Of a DNA stretch of 60,827 nucleotides, positions 1 to 7,829 are shown in pieces; position 1 is the stretch's first letter; each line of letters starts with the position of its first letter. Source of the DNA: Bacteriovoracaceae bacterium (GTDB taxonomy: Bacteria; Bdellovibrionota; Bacteriovoracia; Bacteriovoracales; Bacteriovoracaceae). The stretch is from the NCBI GenBank assembly GCA_016786485.1, contig JAEUWD010000015.1, positions 1-60,827 of the forward strand, written 5' to 3'. Under the pieces are notes generated by a model. The model ran no database searches. It was not told the origin of the DNA and saw only the letters and a program-made list of their open reading frames with translations. The translations under genes were made by a program, and so were the position numbers.

Positions 1-856
1 TCATCGGTGGTTCAGATTTTAATTTTAATAAACCATAAATTTTTTCCAGCATAAATCCAATCGCATACACCAGAGAAAATGGAATTTTGGTGGTGACAGG
101 TTTCTGACCATTCATGGTAAGCGCTTGATTGATAAAATTCCAAAGATTGACTGGTTCATTTTGGCCGATAAAATAAACTTTTCCCGTGACTTTACTTCCA
201 GGGGCCAAATGATGAAAAGCTTGAACGTGAGCATTGGCCGCATTATCAACGTATGTCACATCTACTAAATTTCTACCATTGCCGACAATTTTTAATTTGC
301 CTTCGCTCGCTTTTGAAAAAAGGCGTGGGAAGATATGTGGATCACCTGGTCCCCAAATGAGGTGAGGCCGTAAAGCAACTACTAAAAAATCCGTGGGGTG
401 AGCGTGACTTAAAAGATATTTTTCCGCTAAGGCCTTGGTTTCCGCATAAGCGCAAGAAAAACGTGTAGGATAATCCAGACTCTCATCTACGCCATTCAGA
501 TTTGGTTGGTCGAGAATCGTGCTAGGGCTACTGGTGTAAACACATTTTTTTATTTTTAATTCTAAACATGCGTCTACGATATTTTTCGTGCCCATAAAAT
601 TAGCATTAAAATAATCTTCGTAATCGCCCCAGACACCAGCTTTGGCCGCGACGTGAAAGACAGCATCCATTCCTGTCAGCGCTTTTTTCACCGACTGATA
701 ATCGCTCAAGTCTCCCGTGAGATTTTTCACACCCATCGTTTCCAGATGAGGGTAAGTATTACGCGAAAAACTATACAGTTCGTAAGGATAATTTTTGAGA
801 ATTTTAAGAATGGCCGTACCAAGAAATCCACCGCCACCTGTGACTAAAATTTTCAT
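1..856 (-). CDS. oleD: OleD-like NAD(P)-dependent 2-alkyl-3-oxoalkanoate reductase (partial, C-terminus off the left edge)
   Basis: Translating the minus strand from the ATG at 854-856 gives an open frame to the window edge (285 residues). It begins with a Rossmann motif GGGGFLG at residues 7-13 and later has the short-chain dehydrogenase catalytic pair YAETK (Tyr-x-x-x-Lys), typical of extended SDRs. In the olefin pathway OleD reduces the beta-keto acid made by OleA to a beta-hydroxy acid. The ATG shares one base with the oleC stop codon (TGATG), so the two are translationally coupled. The position directly after OleA, OleB and OleC homologues makes OleD the best call; a sterol-dehydrogenase-like epimerase would look similar in isolation. 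The stop codon is not in the window. Confidence 0.85.
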   Translation of the reverse strand, partial: MKILVTGGGGFLGTAILKILKNYPYELYSFSRNTYPHLETMGVKNLTGDLSDYQSVKKALTGMDAVFHVAAKAGVWGDYEDYFNANFMGTKNIVDACLELKIKKCVYTSSPSTILDQPNLNGVDESLDYPTRFSCAYAETKALAEKYLLSHAHPTDFLVVALRPHLIWGPGDPHIFPRLFSKASEGKLKIVGNGRNLVDVTYVDNAANAHVQAFHHLAPGSKVTGKVYFIGQNEPVNLWNFINQALTMNGQKPVTTKIPFSLVYAIGFMLEKIYGLLKLKSEPPM

Positions 857-2466
857 CAGACTTTTCCTTGATAGTAATCTCTTAATTTTAATCTATCTAT
901 TTTAATATTATGTCTTACATCCACGGGAAATGAAGTCGCGAAAAAGACATCCTTAATAGGAGTCTTCGTTGGTAAATTATGCTTTATCGTTTCGATTTTT
1001 TTAAGCACCAGATTTTTTTGAAAAACTGATTTTAATTCAACCACCAAAGCTGGCGCAACTTTTTCATTGTACATTAAACCTACGAGGGCCGTGCGTTTAA
1101 TTTCCGGAATCTGATTGAAAATATTTTCAATTTGTACCGAATAAATTTTTTCAGTTCCAGTTTCAATCACGTGCGACTTTCGACCACAGAACCAAAGATA
1201 TCCATCCTTATCAAAATATCCTACGTCGCCCATTCGATGCCACAGACCTTCTGGTCCTGTAATTTTTGATTCAAGCGTTGCGACCTGAGCATTAAAATAG
1301 CGAGCTGTCACCGTATCAGAATGAACCAGAATTTCACCGACACTTCCCAATGGTAGCTCGTGACAATCACTTACGTTTAAAAAATTACGATTTTCATTAC
1401 TAATAATTTTTATTTTTACACCAGGAGCAGGCTTACCAACACAAGTGCCCGCACCTGTCGCATACTTGGACTGCTGATTCTTTAGTATCAATTGTCCCGA
1501 GATATTAGTAATTGGTAAACATTCAGTCGCCCCATAAGGAGTGTAGCTGTCACCGTTAGGTAAAATTTGTGCGAGCTTACTTAAAAGTTCCGGCTCAACT
1601 GGTGCTCCAAACATGACAAGACTGCGCACACTGCTCAGTTTGATTTGATTTTCTAAACAGTAATCAGCCACTTTCAGCCAAATGGCAGGGGAACCTGCCG
1701 CAAAAGTCACGTTTTGTTCTTGAATATTTTTAACAATTTTTTTTGGATTCACTTTCGCTGGTCGGCTCGGATTCATTGCAGGAATACAACTAGTCATTCC
1801 GATTGCTAAGGTAAAAAGCGAAAATAAAGGAAAACCAGGTAAATCTACATCCATCGGTGTTAACGTGTACATTTCTTTTAATTTTAAAGTCTGCGCCTTA
1901 AGAATTCCGTGAGTATACTCCACACCTTTAGGCTCACCTGTTCCACCCGAAGTGAAAAGAATCGCCGCCAGATCTTTTGCTTCAAGATTTTCACAAATCT
2001 CTGTAACGTTACTTTCCTTGCCGACTAACCGACTAAGGCCTTTTATTTTTCCGAAGGTAAAGTCATTCGGCGTGAAAGTTAATTTCAAACTCTTGAATGC
2101 ATCTTTTTTTAATAGTCGAATGAGATAAACCAGTGGCTCAGCAATCATCACTTCTGGACTGGCATTTTTAATTGCCGTCAGAAGATTTTTAATTCCCATC
2201 CCAGGATCAATCATGATCGGAACTGCACCCAAACGAAAAAGAGCAAAAATAATAATAGAAAAATTCAGTGATGGTTTAATAAAAACCAGAACGCGCTGAC
2301 CTCTTACGACCCCTTGGGACTTTAGAACTTGAGCATACTTATGGCTTCTCTCATTATAAGTTTTAAAATCATAGTATTCGTAAAGACCACTTGATGACGG
2401 GTATGTGATCGCTTTTTTTGTGGGAAAGCGCTTGGCATTTTCTGAAATAAATTCAGCTATATTCAT
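856..2466 (-). CDS. oleC: OleC-like beta-lactone synthetase (ANL superfamily AMP-forming enzyme)
   Basis: A 536-residue protein of the acyl-adenylate-forming superfamily. The ATP-binding P-loop SGGTGEPKG is at residues 173-181, and a YGATE motif and the C-terminal GDVGYFDKDGYLWFCGRK hinge region are present. In known Ole systems OleC turns the beta-hydroxy acid from OleD into a beta-lactone using ATP. The ATG at 2464-2466 directly follows the oleB stop codon, and the gene overlaps oleD by one base. Length fits the OleC family. An ordinary fatty acyl-CoA or acyl-AMP ligase is possible from sequence alone, but the neighbours make OleC much the likelier. Confidence 0.88.
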   Translation of the reverse strand: MNIAEFISENAKRFPTKKAITYPSSSGLYEYYDFKTYNERSHKYAQVLKSQGVVRGQRVLVFIKPSLNFSIIIFALFRLGAVPIMIDPGMGIKNLLTAIKNASPEVMIAEPLVYLIRLLKKDAFKSLKLTFTPNDFTFGKIKGLSRLVGKESNVTEICENLEAKDLAAILFTSGGTGEPKGVEYTHGILKAQTLKLKEMYTLTPMDVDLPGFPLFSLFTLAIGMTSCIPAMNPSRPAKVNPKKIVKNIQEQNVTFAAGSPAIWLKVADYCLENQIKLSSVRSLVMFGAPVEPELLSKLAQILPNGDSYTPYGATECLPITNISGQLILKNQQSKYATGAGTCVGKPAPGVKIKIISNENRNFLNVSDCHELPLGSVGEILVHSDTVTARYFNAQVATLESKITGPEGLWHRMGDVGYFDKDGYLWFCGRKSHVIETGTEKIYSVQIENIFNQIPEIKRTALVGLMYNEKVAPALVVELKSVFQKNLVLKKIETIKHNLPTKTPIKDVFFATSFPVDVRHNIKIDRLKLRDYYQGKV

Positions 2467-3342
2467 TTAGCCTCTCAGAAATTTTTTAATCAGTGGTAAA
2501 CATTCAGTGAGAGCGTCTTCCAAGACATAATGTCCCACATCTTTAAAATAATGAGCTTCAGCTTCAGGGTAAATCTCAAGCCACTTTTTATAAAATTTAT
2601 CATTAAAACAAAAATCCGCGCCACCCCAGAGAATGAGTTTTGGCATATCTAATAATGGTAACTTACTTTCGATATCAAGAATCGTTTCGTAACTTTGATC
2701 TTTGGGTGTCATAGGAATATCTTCCACGAAACGACGTACCGCAATTCGATTGGCAAAGCTATCGTATGGAAGAAGATAACCTTCCTTAACTAAACTGGTC
2801 ATAGGTTTAGTTGTCGTCATAAAGGTCGCTGGCCAAGCAAAAGCGTTCATCGCTTGTACCAAGAAGGCCCCAATTTTCGTACGGCAAAAAGCAATTCTAC
2901 GCGGAATATGTGGGCTTAAAAAAGCCGCCGTATTCATGATCATAATTTTTTTAATCAACTCCGGTCGCTTCGTTGCTAAGCCAAACCCAATCGCGCCACC
3001 CCAGTCATGTACCATTAAGTTCACTTGAGTGAGTTGTAACTTATGAATGAGTACCAAAAGATTTGAAATATGCGTGTCCAAAGTATAAGCATACTCTTGC
3101 GGCTTATCTGATAAACCACAACCCATATGATCTGGGACGATAATGCGATAATCTTTTTTTAGTGTACGAACTAAATTGCGATAATAAAAAGACCAAGTCG
3201 GATTCCCGTGTAGCATAAGGATCACTTCGCCTTGCCCTTCATCGAGGTAATGATATCGCTGGTCACCGATCTTCAAAAAGTTTGATTTAAAAGGATAAAG
3301 ACTTGCCATAGGTGATTGATTTTTTGCTAAGACTTCTACCAC
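2467..3342 (-). CDS. oleB: OleB-like beta-lactone decarboxylase (alpha/beta hydrolase of the haloalkane dehalogenase type)
   Basis: A 291-residue alpha/beta hydrolase. The oxyanion-side motif HGNPTWS (45-51) and the nucleophile elbow VHDWGG with Asp113 are both visible; an aspartate nucleophile, rather than serine, is the mark of haloalkane dehalogenases and OleB. The other likely catalytic residues are Asp242 (in WGGADF) and His270 (in DVGHY). OleB removes CO2 from the beta-lactone to give the alkene. The start is a GTG at 3340-3342 lying inside the end of oleA (7-base overlap), so translation is coupled. A dehalogenase is the alternative, but the operon context argues against it. Confidence 0.87.
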   Translation of the reverse strand: MVEVLAKNQSPMASLYPFKSNFLKIGDQRYHYLDEGQGEVILMLHGNPTWSFYYRNLVRTLKKDYRIIVPDHMGCGLSDKPQEYAYTLDTHISNLLVLIHKLQLTQVNLMVHDWGGAIGFGLATKRPELIKKIMIMNTAAFLSPHIPRRIAFCRTKIGAFLVQAMNAFAWPATFMTTTKPMTSLVKEGYLLPYDSFANRIAVRRFVEDIPMTPKDQSYETILDIESKLPLLDMPKLILWGGADFCFNDKFYKKWLEIYPEAEAHYFKDVGHYVLEDALTECLPLIKKFLRG

Positions 3343-4367
3343 TCTACCCCCAACATGACAGAACTAATACCACTGCCAATTCCAAGCATCGCAACAGTGT
3401 CACCCTTCTTTAAAAACTTCGCTTCGCTCGCGAGTGATAAAGTGAGTGGTAGCGCAGCTGATCCGGTATTGCCCCATTGCTCAAAAGAAGAAAAATCTTT
3501 TGCCAAATTGAGTTCACAACTTTTGTAGAGTAACTCGCGATGAGCACTCCCCACTTGATGAGTAATATATTTATCAGCACTATCATTATTCCATTTCATT
3601 TCTGACTTTAAATTTTGCCAGTTAGCATAAGCCAAATTCACACCCGCTTGTAAAAGCTCAGGTGAATTCGTTTCCATCATCAGGCCAGACTGATCACCAC
3701 TGCCTTGGCATAGGTGGTTGGCCGAAGTATCACTCATAACCGAGCTCGCAAGTATCTGATGCCCTTCTGATGCCCATCCATTTTTCGTTACCAGCACTGC
3801 GACTCCAGCACTACCGATGGTTAGATTGGCGACATATTTTTTACTTTCTTTGCGATCAATTTTTTCATTAGTATTTAAAAGTTCAACGGTTTGCTTAATC
3901 AGGGGCCCACTATTTTCACCTGAGACAATTAAGGCCGCATTGATTTGTTCGCTTTCAATTAATTTAGCGGCAAGATCAATCCCACTCATCACACCTAAAC
4001 AGGCTTGAGAAAGATCATAATGCTGACAATGAGGACTTAAACCTAATTTCTGATGAACCACACTCGCTGTCGCTGGCTCTAAAAAATCCCGACAGACACT
4101 GGCAAAAATGAGAAGATCAATCTTATCTCGTGCGATAGAACTTTTACTCAAACATTTTTCTGCTGCTTCCGTCGCAATCAAACTCGGAGCTGTTCCTACT
4201 GGCCAATGCCCACGTTGCTTAATTCCTGTTTGTAATTCTAAACGACCAGCTGGTAATTTACATCGCTCATAATGAGGCGCCAGTCGTGTTTCTAAATCTT
4301 CAGAACTGACTAATATCGGAGGTAACACATGAGCAAGCGAAGCAATTTTGGCCTTAGTAAAAATCAA
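3336..4367 (-). CDS. oleA: OleA-like head-to-head acyl condensing thiolase
   Basis: A 343-residue FabH-fold thiolase. Catalytic Cys123 lies in QACLG, His270 in THQVG and Asn300 in WGNTGSA. The stretch CRDFLEPATAS (93-103) carries Glu97 at the place of the glutamate that OleA uses to activate the second acyl chain, which separates OleA from plain FabH. OleA joins two fatty acyl thioesters by Claisen condensation to a 2-alkyl-3-keto acid. The start is a TTG at 4365-4367 that overlaps the stop of the FAD oxidoreductase gene (TTGA). It is in one operon with its partners OleB, OleC and OleD. Confidence 0.9.
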   Translation of the reverse strand: MIFTKAKIASLAHVLPPILVSSEDLETRLAPHYERCKLPAGRLELQTGIKQRGHWPVGTAPSLIATEAAEKCLSKSSIARDKIDLLIFASVCRDFLEPATASVVHQKLGLSPHCQHYDLSQACLGVMSGIDLAAKLIESEQINAALIVSGENSGPLIKQTVELLNTNEKIDRKESKKYVANLTIGSAGVAVLVTKNGWASEGHQILASSVMSDTSANHLCQGSGDQSGLMMETNSPELLQAGVNLAYANWQNLKSEMKWNNDSADKYITHQVGSAHRELLYKSCELNLAKDFSSFEQWGNTGSAALPLTLSLASEAKFLKKGDTVAMLGIGSGISSVMLGVEW

Positions 4368-5758
4368 CTCTCCCCCATTAAACCATAAAGGTTCGAAATT
4401 GAGATCCCTGATAAAATACTACCGACAATACCAACGAAACCTTGATCGGTTCCAATAATAAAAAGATTTTCGATTGGTGTTTTTCCCGCGCGGCTTTTTT
4501 CCGTGCTACCGTAAACGGCACCGGCCTTATGCCAAGTATAGCGCTCGATAGTGGTTGGAGAAAATACGTCACTAAAAGTGACATTTCCATCAAAATCAGG
4601 AATTAGTGTGTTCACGAGTTTAATCGAATCCGCAAGCACTTCTTGTTTTTTCTGCAAATACACTTCGCGCTCTAAACTTTTCCATAAATTGTAATTGGCC
4701 ATATAGGTAATACGTAAGACACCTTCGCCATCACGCTGATTTGGATGATAATTATCAGGAGCACAGAAAACGGCACTCGTGTTGTCATACAAACTGCTTG
4801 GTCGCTGATAACGATATTGAGAAGCATTATTGTAAAACACGATAGTTGAATCAAATTGCTCAAGGGGAACTTTCTTATCATAAAACAAAATCGTTTCCGT
4901 AAAGCTTAAGGGGCCCGCTGGTGCCATTGGCAATCTCACACCTTCACTCACACGTTCATAAGTTTCAGGTAGGCCCATGGAAGAGAAAACTTGTTTGCTT
5001 TCGACAAAACCATTTGGCGTTTGCACGCCTTTGATTTTTTTATTTTCGACGATAATTTTTTCAACTGGTGTACGATATTTGATTTCACCACCGACTTCTA
5101 AAAACTTTTTCGTTAATAATTCCAGAATAGTTCGTACGCCACCACGCGGGCGAGCGAAGCCTTCTAAGAAAATGGATTTAAACATGATCACGAACTGAGA
5201 AAAATCCATATCATTTTCCCAAGCCGAACCATAAATCAAAAGCGGACACATGATCATTTCGACTAACTGCGGATTTTTGATTCTTTGAGATAAAAGCTCT
5301 TTCGTTGACTGGTATGTAGCATTTAAATCCAGTTCATTAAACTGCACAATTGTTTCCACTAAGTGCAGAAAATTTTGATAATCATCTGGAAAAAATCGCG
5401 CTACTTCGCTTTTGAGTAATTCAAAATCGTTACTGAATTTCAAGATAGCATCTGGAAATTGAATTTTTGAGTGTGACTGTTCTTCTAATTGGAAGCTATC
5501 ATAATCGAGTCTTAATTGTTTTAGCAGCTTACTAAACGGCTTACCTTTCTCACCCTTACGAATGAAATTGGTCATAGCGTGCAAACCCACATCGAACTTT
5601 CGCTCTTCAAGTGGCTCTCTTCTTCTTCGGTAATAGGAATTAAGCCCGCCTGGAATGGAGTGTTTCTCGAAGATACAGACTTTCTTATCAAACATGGCCA
5701 ATCTGATCCCAGCGGCCAAACCTGACATGCCTGCACCAACTATGACGGCGTCGTACAT
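4364..5758 (-). CDS. FAD-dependent oxidoreductase, phytoene desaturase / retinol saturase type
   Basis: A 464-residue flavoprotein. The N-terminal dinucleotide-binding motif GAGMSGLAAG is at residues 8-17, followed by an acidic strand end (FEKH) and PGGLNSYYRR. The C-terminus has the family's FAD-contact segment GTDQGFVGIVGS and a short hydrophobic end, as in CrtI, carotenoid isomerase and all-trans-retinol saturase proteins. Such enzymes add, remove or isomerise double bonds in polyenes. The ATG overlaps the ACP stop (TAATG), and the gene overlaps oleA at its other end. It therefore probably acts on the ACP-bound or free acyl chain before condensation, or on the olefin product. There is no carotenoid synthase gene nearby to suggest carotenoid work. 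Confidence 0.78.
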   Translation of the reverse strand: MYDAVIVGAGMSGLAAGIRLAMFDKKVCIFEKHSIPGGLNSYYRRRREPLEERKFDVGLHAMTNFIRKGEKGKPFSKLLKQLRLDYDSFQLEEQSHSKIQFPDAILKFSNDFELLKSEVARFFPDDYQNFLHLVETIVQFNELDLNATYQSTKELLSQRIKNPQLVEMIMCPLLIYGSAWENDMDFSQFVIMFKSIFLEGFARPRGGVRTILELLTKKFLEVGGEIKYRTPVEKIIVENKKIKGVQTPNGFVESKQVFSSMGLPETYERVSEGVRLPMAPAGPLSFTETILFYDKKVPLEQFDSTIVFYNNASQYRYQRPSSLYDNTSAVFCAPDNYHPNQRDGEGVLRITYMANYNLWKSLEREVYLQKKQEVLADSIKLVNTLIPDFDGNVTFSDVFSPTTIERYTWHKAGAVYGSTEKSRAGKTPIENLFIIGTDQGFVGIVGSILSGISISNLYGLMGES

Positions 5759-6006
5759 TACTGAATAAATTTAGGAGTCAGATACTCAACACAACTCGCA
5801 AGAGTTGCAAGTCTTGGATAATCATCAGCTGGAACTTCTACACGATGTCTCTTTCTAAGCTCCATAACGATATCTAAGAAATCCATTGAATCGAGATCTA
5901 ATTGTTCACGTAGACTCACATCTTCTTTAATAACAGAAAGATCTTCATCTGGTGCAATGTCTGCGATGATATCGATAACAACTTGTTTAACATCTTGAGT
6001 GGTCAT
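5758..6006 (-). CDS. Pathway-dedicated acyl carrier protein
   Basis: An 82-residue acidic helical protein with the phosphopantetheine attachment motif LDSMDF, Ser40. It differs from housekeeping AcpP in its C-terminal half, where it has RKRHRVEVPADDYPRL. A clear Shine-Dalgarno GGAG precedes the ATG. It lies 9 bases after the ketosynthase gene and overlaps the FAD oxidoreductase gene by one base. This fits a pathway-specific carrier that holds the growing or modified acyl chain for the upstream ketosynthase and possibly for OleA. Which enzymes load and unload it cannot be read from the sequence. Confidence 0.9.
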   Translation of the reverse strand: MTTQDVKQVVIDIIADIAPDEDLSVIKEDVSLREQLDLDSMDFLDIVMELRKRHRVEVPADDYPRLATLASCVEYLTPKFIQ

Positions 6007-6015
6007 GAATAGCTC

Positions 6016-7260
6016 CTATTTTCCTTCGTATTTTTTTACAATTAATGCTGAATTAATTCCTAACATTCCAAAAGAATTATTAAGAATAGTTTTCACATTG
6101 CCAACATATTTAGATTCTTGAATCACTAATCCAGGGCACTCGCAATCGGGATCAAGTTCATCCACGTTTAAGCCGAGGTGCACAATGCCATCTTCAAATG
6201 CTGACAGGTTACCAGCTAACTCTAAAGCACCCGCTGCACCCATGCAATGGCCAATATGACCTTTGGTAAAGTTAACATAGGTTTTTGACGACGCTGAGAA
6301 GACCTCTCTAACAGCTGCCGCCTCAGAAATATCCCCCGCACCGGTTCCAGTCGCATGCATACTGACAATATCAACATCAGAAGCTTGCATTTGAGCGCGA
6401 TGAAGCGCCAGACGCATACATTCTGTTTGTCGCCCTGTATGAGGGTTCACGTAATCAGAAGCATCTGAATTAATCGCGTAACCAACGATTTCGGCATAAA
6501 TCTTTGCTCCACGAGCGAGAGCCGTTTCTAATTTTTCAATAATATATAAACAGCCACCTTCACTAATAACAGTGCCGTTTCTTTTCTTATCCATTGGTCG
6601 AATCGATTTTGTCACATCGTTAGCATCAAAACCTAAGGCACCTTGAGCAGCAAAGCCTGCGAAAATTCCAAACGTTTGTGGACTTTCCGAGATACCACCA
6701 GCGATCGCCAATTCCACTTCACCTAAGCGTAGCATTTGCACCGCTTGAATAATCCCAGCGTTACCCCCAGCACAAGCTGCACCGATCGTGTAATGAGGCC
6801 CAGTGATTCCAAGCGCGAGAGTCACTTCACCTGCTGGATTATTTGCGACCGTTCTTGGATTGTGATGTGGTGACCACAATTTTGTATCTAATTTATTTTG
6901 ATGAAGCTCGTAGATTTCATTTTCCGTTTCAACGTTACCGTGTTCAGTAATTCCCACGTAAACGCCAACTTTTGATTTATCTAAACTGGCCCAATCAAGC
7001 TTCGCGTCGGTGATAGCTTCGTTAGCACAGTAAATTGAAATCGAACCCGCACGTGTCCCACGACGACGCTGTTTTTTACTTTGATATTTCATTTCATCGA
7101 AACGACAAAGACCAACTGCTTGTTGACCCATGTAACGAATTTCACTTTGTGTAATTCCAGAAACACCTTGAACTAAGGCTTGACGATATTCAGTCAGGTT
7201 ATTGCCATTAGGAGCAGTGAGTCCAACACCGGTAATGACAATTCTTTGATGGGAATACAA
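6016..7260 (-). CDS. Beta-ketoacyl-ACP synthase, FabF/KAS II type
   Basis: A 414-residue condensing enzyme with an intact Cys-His-His triad: Cys163 in GAACAGG, His302 in MHATGTGAGD, and His338 in GHIGHCMGAAG. The intact cysteine argues for a chain-elongating enzyme and not a chain-length factor. The GTG-for-G substitutions around His302 (HATGTGAGD in place of HGTGTPLND) mark it as a divergent, probably secondary-metabolism FabF. The TTG start at 7258-7260 has GAGAAG upstream. It is the first gene of the seven-gene ole operon and faces the histone gene across a 176-base divergent promoter region. Confidence 0.85.
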   Translation of the reverse strand: MYSHQRIVITGVGLTAPNGNNLTEYRQALVQGVSGITQSEIRYMGQQAVGLCRFDEMKYQSKKQRRRGTRAGSISIYCANEAITDAKLDWASLDKSKVGVYVGITEHGNVETENEIYELHQNKLDTKLWSPHHNPRTVANNPAGEVTLALGITGPHYTIGAACAGGNAGIIQAVQMLRLGEVELAIAGGISESPQTFGIFAGFAAQGALGFDANDVTKSIRPMDKKRNGTVISEGGCLYIIEKLETALARGAKIYAEIVGYAINSDASDYVNPHTGRQTECMRLALHRAQMQASDVDIVSMHATGTGAGDISEAAAVREVFSASSKTYVNFTKGHIGHCMGAAGALELAGNLSAFEDGIVHLGLNVDELDPDCECPGLVIQESKYVGNVKTILNNSFGMLGINSALIVKKYEGK

Positions 7261-7318: not shown

Positions 7319-7436
7319 CCAAAATTGACTCACTCCACACTACCAAAATGTATCTTTCCTATGACTCTTTGCAACTTGCTGAGTTTGATGCGCAGGAATA
7401 TCTTTAATGCACACAACCTCTCAAAACGGAGTACCC

Positions 7437-7829
7437 ATGGAAAACTACATTATTGCTTCCAAAGTAAAAAAATTTATTAAAGAAAAATCTGGTATGAACA
7501 CTTCTGCTGCTTTTTTTGAAAAACTTAATCAAGACGTTTTGTCATCACTGACTTCAAGTATTGAAGCAGCGAAAACTTCTGGTCGTAAAACCGTTATGGC
7601 ACGTGATTTCAGCCTCTATGTTGAAAATCCACAAATTGAAGAGAGCTTAGTTGTTGCTTCAAAAATTAAAAAATATATTAAAGATACTGCAGGTCTAAGT
7701 ACTTCTGCTCAAGCTTTTGATCAATTAACTTTAAGAGTGCAAAAAGCTTGCACGTTAGCGATTCAAAACGCGACTAACGATAAAAGAAAAACTGTTATGG
7801 ATAGAGATTTTGCAGCACCGTCAGCTTAA
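7437..7829 (+). CDS. Bacterial histone, two fused histone folds (doublet)
   Basis: A 130-residue protein made of two copies of a histone fold. Residues 4-58 and 71-125 align without gaps at a period of 67 residues, with 25 of 55 positions identical. Each half has the order short helix (SKVKKFIK / SKIKKYIK), long central helix, then RKTV-M-x-RDF, matching the RKTV DNA-contact loop of archaeal and bacterial histones. Bdellovibrio has known single-fold histones. This one would fold as an intramolecular dimer and bind DNA as a nucleoid protein. The start is the ATG at 7437, preceded by CGGAG at a good distance; an ATG 30 bases earlier lacks this. It is divergent from the ole operon. Confidence 0.85.
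   Translation: MENYIIASKVKKFIKEKSGMNTSAAFFEKLNQDVLSSLTSSIEAAKTSGRKTVMARDFSLYVENPQIEESLVVASKIKKYIKDTAGLSTSAQAFDQLTLRVQKACTLAIQNATNDKRKTVMDRDFAAPSA

Follow-up and report, generated by a model that had tools for sequence, protein, structure and literature searches.

A seven-gene operon encoding a ketosynthase (KS), an acyl carrier protein (ACP), a CrtI/CrtISO-like flavin adenine dinucleotide (FAD) oxidoreductase (FAD1) and the olefin biosynthesis enzymes OleA, OleB, OleC and OleD was found on contig JAEUWD010000015.1 of Bacteriovoracaceae bacterium (GenBank assembly GCA_016786485.1, 67 contigs), a relative of predatory bacteria. The window analyzed here is the whole stretch of 60,827 nucleotides (positions 1 to 60,827), representing one end of this contig, with the operon at its left tip. 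We regard it as likely that OleA receives a special acyl chain, which is probably polyunsaturated, from a type II fatty acid synthase that is dedicated to this purpose and needs no oxygen, and the operon in the window would be one half of this two-operon pathway. Such pairing of a fatty acid assembly line with OleABCD is common to much of the family Bacteriovoracaceae and to several other phyla.

All seven open reading frames reported by the initial annotation were present on the minus strand as one tight operon, and no gap or overlap exceeded 9 bases, as it had claimed: from KS to OleD, the junctions were a 9-base gap, overlaps of 1, 4, and 7 bases, a direct abutment (0 bases), and a 1-base overlap. 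Pfam and NCBIfam assignments also matched the gene names that it had proposed. The FabF-like KS (6016..7260, PF00109/PF02801) is the first gene, followed by a dedicated ACP carrying a DSM motif with Ser40 (5758..6006, PF00550) and by FAD1 (4364..5758, PF01593/PF13450), the signature gene of the module. Downstream are the predicted head-to-head acyl-condensing thiolase OleA (3336..4367, NF006720), the beta-lactone decarboxylase OleB, an alpha/beta hydrolase resembling haloalkane dehalogenases (2467..3342, haloalkane dehalogenase families), the AMP-binding, putative beta-lactone synthetase OleC (856..2466, NF006754), and the putative 2-alkyl-3-oxoalkanoate reductase OleD (2..856, NF042422). Position 1 is the contig end, where the C terminus of OleD is missing, and 285 of its about 330 amino acids could be read. 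The gene order KS-ACP-FAD1-OleABCD is far beyond chance, because it recurs in more than 20 genera.

The catalytic residues of these enzymes were present, and at the positions checked they varied little or not at all among up to 124 relatives. Cys163, His302, and His338 of the KS lay exactly where they had been placed and were invariant in 102 relatives. Its description as FabF-type holds as far as FabF likeness is concerned, but not for the FabF equivalog, for which it scored 288 bits against a cut-off of 494 despite the intact triad. Moreover, the KS shared only 33% identity with the FabF of its own genome, versus 54 to 78% with its module counterparts from other genera and phyla. Ser40 of the ACP was invariant in 114 relatives. 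OleA scored 389 bits with NF006720 (cut-off, 285), and its Cys123, Asn300, and OleA-type Glu97 were kept in all of 97 to 99 relatives, with His270 present in a THQ motif; its nearest PDB entries appear from their codes to be OleA structures, the database names being 3-oxoacyl-[ACP] synthase III. OleB contained the nucleophile Asp113 in HDWGG and the catalytic His271. OleC scored 554.6 bits with NF006754 (cut-off, 478), and 436 and 407 bits with the olefin beta-lactone synthetase models, the strict cut-offs of which are 900 and 850; its gene lies within the ole operon. The partial OleD scored 334 bits over residues 1 to 285 with NF042422 (cut-off, 580).

The initial annotation had suspected further genes past the left edge of the window, and an operon of this kind was found about 4 kb away, comprising a second CrtI-like flavoprotein (FAD2), a FabG-type ketoreductase (KR), a FabZ-type dehydratase (DH), and a FabI-type enoyl reductase (ER). 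This FAD2-KR-DH-ER block recurs beside the ole operon in relatives, while in the genome studied here it sits on contig C17. The C terminus of OleD was located on C34, a contig of 4,023 bases whose right tip is identical to the left tip of the window's contig, C66, over 39 bases (1..39, no strand), and C34 and C17 in turn share an exact tip overlap of 31 bases; therefore, the second operon lies some 4 kb to the left of the window and, as it does in relatives, converges on the ole operon. Exact overlaps of this length at two contig tips are not expected by chance, with a small probability that repeats account for them. The DH has His43 and Glu57, both invariant in 70 relatives, as in FabZ-type enzymes, and the catalytic Glu in place of Asp ruled out an isomerizing dehydratase of the FabA type. 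Its best PDB matches (8ayc, 8ayb, and 7qv0), which are probably anammox FabZ structures, lead by only a few bits and were not used as evidence. Since the DH is not of the FabA type, another enzyme should place double bonds, and FAD1 and FAD2 are the candidates.

For FAD1, the initial description as CrtI-type was borne out at the level of fold and superfamily, whereas identity as a carotenoid enzyme was not. Its score was 83.6 bits for carotenoid isomerase (cut-off, 586.9) and 54 bits for the crtI family (cut-off, 238), and FAD2 likewise remained under the carotenoid-enzyme family cut-offs. The predicted fold of FAD1 had a predicted local distance difference test (pLDDT) score of 89, with the gamma-carotenoid desaturase 4rep as the nearest solved structure (template modeling [TM] score, 0.74; 18% identity), and that of FAD2 (pLDDT, 86) was also closest to carotenoid desaturases. 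Thus, FAD1 and FAD2 have the fold and the FAD-binding motif in common with the carotenoid flavoenzymes CrtI, CrtISO, and CrtD, but differ from them in their low identity to solved members (<20%), in scores far under the family cut-offs, and in a genomic context of fatty acid genes. Some members of the carotenoid-desaturase fold function without oxygen, and one is a redox-neutral isomerase. In a plasmid collection, FAD matches were distant (20 to 25% identity over most of the length), with two short stretches near 50%.

Within Bacteriovoracaceae, the KS-ACP-FAD1-OleABCD order was kept in most genera sampled, many of the sampled genomes being incomplete. Of 97 family genomes, 85 had FAD1, as opposed to none of 194 from the rest of the phylum. 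A sample of the family contained 28 genomes with both OleA and FAD1 and 8 with neither, with FAD1 alone in 1 and OleA alone in none (Fisher P = 2e-7); the single FAD1-only genome (G033) has a 3,091-base contig that ends within FAD1. The genes were almost always adjacent, the exceptions being G003 and G025, which retained KS-ACP-FAD1 and had OleA on a separate contig. Such near-obligate co-occurrence and linkage of KS-ACP-FAD1 with OleA support the earlier suggestion that this set supplies a special acyl chain to OleA. In another family of the phylum, two genomes (L060 and L061) carried OleABCD without the KS-ACP-FAD set, their OleA being 32 to 36% identical to that of the window.

A scan of public genomes yielded at least 541 FAD1 relatives (genome stretches), and gene neighborhoods were taken from the best 80. 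Halobacteriovorax (L144) and Smithella-type genomes (L098, L099, and L103) had all 11 genes together in a single run. A Nitrospirota locus (L139) had OleABCD-KS-ACP-FAD1-FAD2-KR-DH-ER, Planctomycetota loci (L138 and L149) had OleABCD-KS-ACP-FAD1-FAD2-DH-ER without KR, and Chloroflexota had OleA-KS-ACP-FAD1-FAD2-KR-DH-ER. In Nitrospinota, the seven-gene module was found without ole genes within 10 kb, and OleA and OleB were located elsewhere in the genome. Outside the family, the module was sometimes on other contigs than ole, yet OleA was present in 21 of 23 module-bearing genomes. Moreover, in a desulfobacterial order of the phylum that includes Smithella (243 genomes), which we take to be Desulfobulbales by our own unconfirmed identification, FAD2 was detected in 186 genomes and OleA in 189, with both in 177, FAD2 only in 9, OleA only in 12, and neither in 45 (P = 9e-29). 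Several desulfobacterial loci (L160-L163/L174) carried the full set, and the order KS-ACP-FAD1-FAD2-KR-DH-ER-OleABCD was seen there. Distances of KS, FAD1, FAD2, and OleA across 31 loci correlated at 0.66 to 0.75, with no correction for the relatedness of the organisms. The Smithella sequences adjoined those of Halobacteriovorax (L125/L144) in the FAD1 tree, with 98% support in the Shimodaira-Hasegawa-like approximate likelihood ratio test; together with the fused operon shared by the two, this adjacency points to whole-unit transfer, and judging from these sequences the fused 11-gene pathway has likely moved between phyla as one unit. In addition, the module region of Dehalococcoidia and of one Planctomycetota-labeled genome (L126/L173 and L128/L172) contained KS in two copies, along with one or two OleA-like genes, and OleBCD were not seen in the vicinity; binning may explain the Planctomycetota label.

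The polyunsaturated fatty acid (PUFA) synthase Pfa is a known chain source for OleA elsewhere, and no PfaD family member was detected in 59 relatives. In the desulfobacterial order, PfaD was detected in 1 of the 243 genomes. The genome studied here has only three KS places, none of which is of the Pfa type. Pfa was thus rejected as the chain source for both this genome and the family. The third, a KS protein of 1,993 amino acids on contig C40, was at first considered as a Pfa candidate and then rejected, its domains being those of a KS-acyltransferase-ACP-aminotransferase-condensation hybrid. This polyketide synthase-nonribosomal peptide synthetase hybrid (G000:C40, 701-6682; L064), with an AMP-ligase nearby, represents a separate natural-product locus.

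Several known systems resemble the one described here. In Shewanella, the Pfa product is passed through OleA to 31:9, and pfa combined with oleA gave a 31:8 ketone (PMC6463001); Geobacter bemidjiensis, which carries pfa and ole in tandem, makes hentriacontanonaene, C31:9 (PMC4882568). These Pfa-OleABCD systems likewise couple a dedicated acyl synthase to OleABCD, in one tandem cluster in Geobacter, with OleA taking a polyunsaturated intermediate; in contrast, the set found here consists of separate small type II enzymes and two CrtI-like flavoproteins, with no Pfa protein and a dehydratase of the FabZ rather than the FabA type. Desulfotalea psychrophila makes C31:8/C31:9 without Pfa (Rattray 2009, PMC2649909). 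Its type II fatty acid synthase clusters hold phytoene-dehydrogenase-like genes, two of which (DP2405/DP2406) are adjacently numbered, and a route from these clusters to polyunsaturated hydrocarbons has already been proposed, with OleA unmentioned (PMC2649909). The extended clusters of Desulfotalea and Kuenenia, proposed to provide an oxygen-independent route to polyunsaturated hydrocarbons or ladderanes (PMC2649909), resemble the present set in having an extra FabF and phytoene-dehydrogenase-like flavoproteins, and the adjacent numbers of DP2405/DP2406 recall FAD1-FAD2; they differ in including radical SAM genes, whereas the set here is compact and tied to OleABCD. Xanthomonas, Micrococcus, and others have these four OleABCD enzymes as well, with identical catalytic residues; their acyl chains come from general fatty acid metabolism, in contrast to the private supply line present here. 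An in vivo screen showed activity of OleA from Halobacteriovorax marinus, a relative of the organism studied here (PMC7064751). No description of a KS-ACP-flavoprotein-ole module was found in the searchable literature, which covers few subscription journals, so that this negative is a weak one.

From the chemistry of the known families, KS and ACP together with KR, DH, and ER would constitute a private, complete type II fatty acid elongation cycle, apart from the housekeeping one. FAD1 and FAD2 would act on the ACP-bound chain without oxygen, placing or isomerizing double bonds, and the output may be a polyunsaturated acyl chain of medium length, by analogy with the 16:4 chain of Shewanella. 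By the known Ole chemistry, two such chains would be joined head to head by OleA, after which OleD would reduce the product, OleC would form the beta-lactone, and OleB would decarboxylate it. The outcome would be a polyunsaturated, long-chain internal olefin resembling C31:9. More tentatively, KS-ACP-FAD1-FAD2-KR-DH-ER might be a type II PUFA synthase, namely, a dissociated, oxygen-independent counterpart of Pfa that feeds OleA directly, in which both flavoproteins could be isomerases (trans-2 to cis-2 and trans-2 to cis-3) replacing the FabA-like domains of Pfa, and which could account for C31:9 in Pfa-lacking bacteria of several phyla. We are less sure of C31:9 itself as the product and put it forward as a possibility.

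Several observations weigh against such a pathway. No feature separating desaturase, isomerase, and saturase was found in FAD1 or FAD2, and polyunsaturation and the exact roles of both flavoproteins are what we infer, as is the product. In Chloroflexota/Dehalococcoidia, only OleA was seen near the module and OleBCD were not, and the output there may therefore differ. The module fits the gap left by C31:8/C31:9 in Desulfotalea, and the tie of D. psychrophila to it rests on prevalence at the level of the order, as we identified it, and on the adjacent gene numbers.

Other products of the same genes were weighed. We consider it unlikely that the special chain from the private line is of a kind other than polyunsaturated (for instance, saturated, cyclic, or ladderane-like, or else very short or very long), that FAD1 and FAD2 serve to saturate it or to form rings, and that Ole converts it into an unusual hydrocarbon. 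Such a role would have precedents, as retinol saturase, in the superfamily of FAD1 and FAD2, reduces double bonds. Candidate ladderane clusters of Kuenenia also hold CrtI-like flavoproteins with FabF paralogues, and the two flavoproteins there showed no formation of lycopene (PMC4790861). However, a FabI-like ER is already present, so that a further reductase is not needed, and the Desulfotalea lipid data indicate C31:8/C31:9 rather than rings (PMC2649909). Some relatives keep OleA without OleBCD alongside (G025 and Dehalococcoidia), and clusters without OleB make beta-lactones (PMC7064751), which would suit a polyunsaturated ketone or beta-lactone as the end product instead of an olefin; we consider this very unlikely, as the window and most relatives have OleB, OleC, and OleD, each with its catalytic residues.

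The connection between the module and Ole could also be questioned. The module chains might serve mainly membrane phospholipids, OleABCD being a neighbor that uses any acyl coenzyme A, and the Nitrospinota module with no ole genes within 10 kb and the Dehalococcoidia module with OleBCD not seen nearby would agree with this. Nevertheless, the nearly obligate association of the module with OleA, seen in two unrelated groups, the overlapping or abutting genes of the window, and the presence of OleA elsewhere in Nitrospinota genomes make it quite improbable. A carotenoid-like or aryl-polyene pigment appears the remotest of these products, even though FAD1 and FAD2 most closely resemble carotenoid desaturases among solved structures: the carotenoid-enzyme cut-offs were missed by a wide margin, the KS has an intact Cys in 102 of 102 relatives and in most loci is not accompanied by an inactive second KS, leaving it without a chain-length-factor partner, and linkage and co-occurrence connect the module to Ole.

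The preferred pathway, in which the private line feeds OleA a probably polyunsaturated chain, bears on a puzzle standing since 2009, namely, the source of C31:8/C31:9 in bacteria without Pfa such as Desulfotalea, for which a compact, conserved gene set occurring in cultivable organisms offers a testable answer. This is the first joining of the set to the Ole pathway in the searchable literature, and it was seen in several phyla. If correct, it would represent a second route to polyunsaturated chains, and one that requires no oxygen, with a bearing on the membrane biology of anaerobes and predatory bacteria, on lipid biomarkers, and on the question of ladderane precursors.

The surroundings of the operon also showed recurrent features. 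A winged-helix protein (TrmB/ArsR-like, 200 to 255 amino acids) lies directly before KS in 14 relatives (L036, L038-L043, L045, L046, L048, and L050-L053), though not in the window, and is likely a regulator of the operon. On the plus strand of the window, positions 7407-7829 encode a protein of 140 amino acids with two tandem histone-fold-like repeats, RKTVMxRDF being present in both halves; it had a weak match to archaeal histones and was read as a doublet histone-like protein, the gene of which (cluster c16) is conserved divergently upstream of KS in several relatives.

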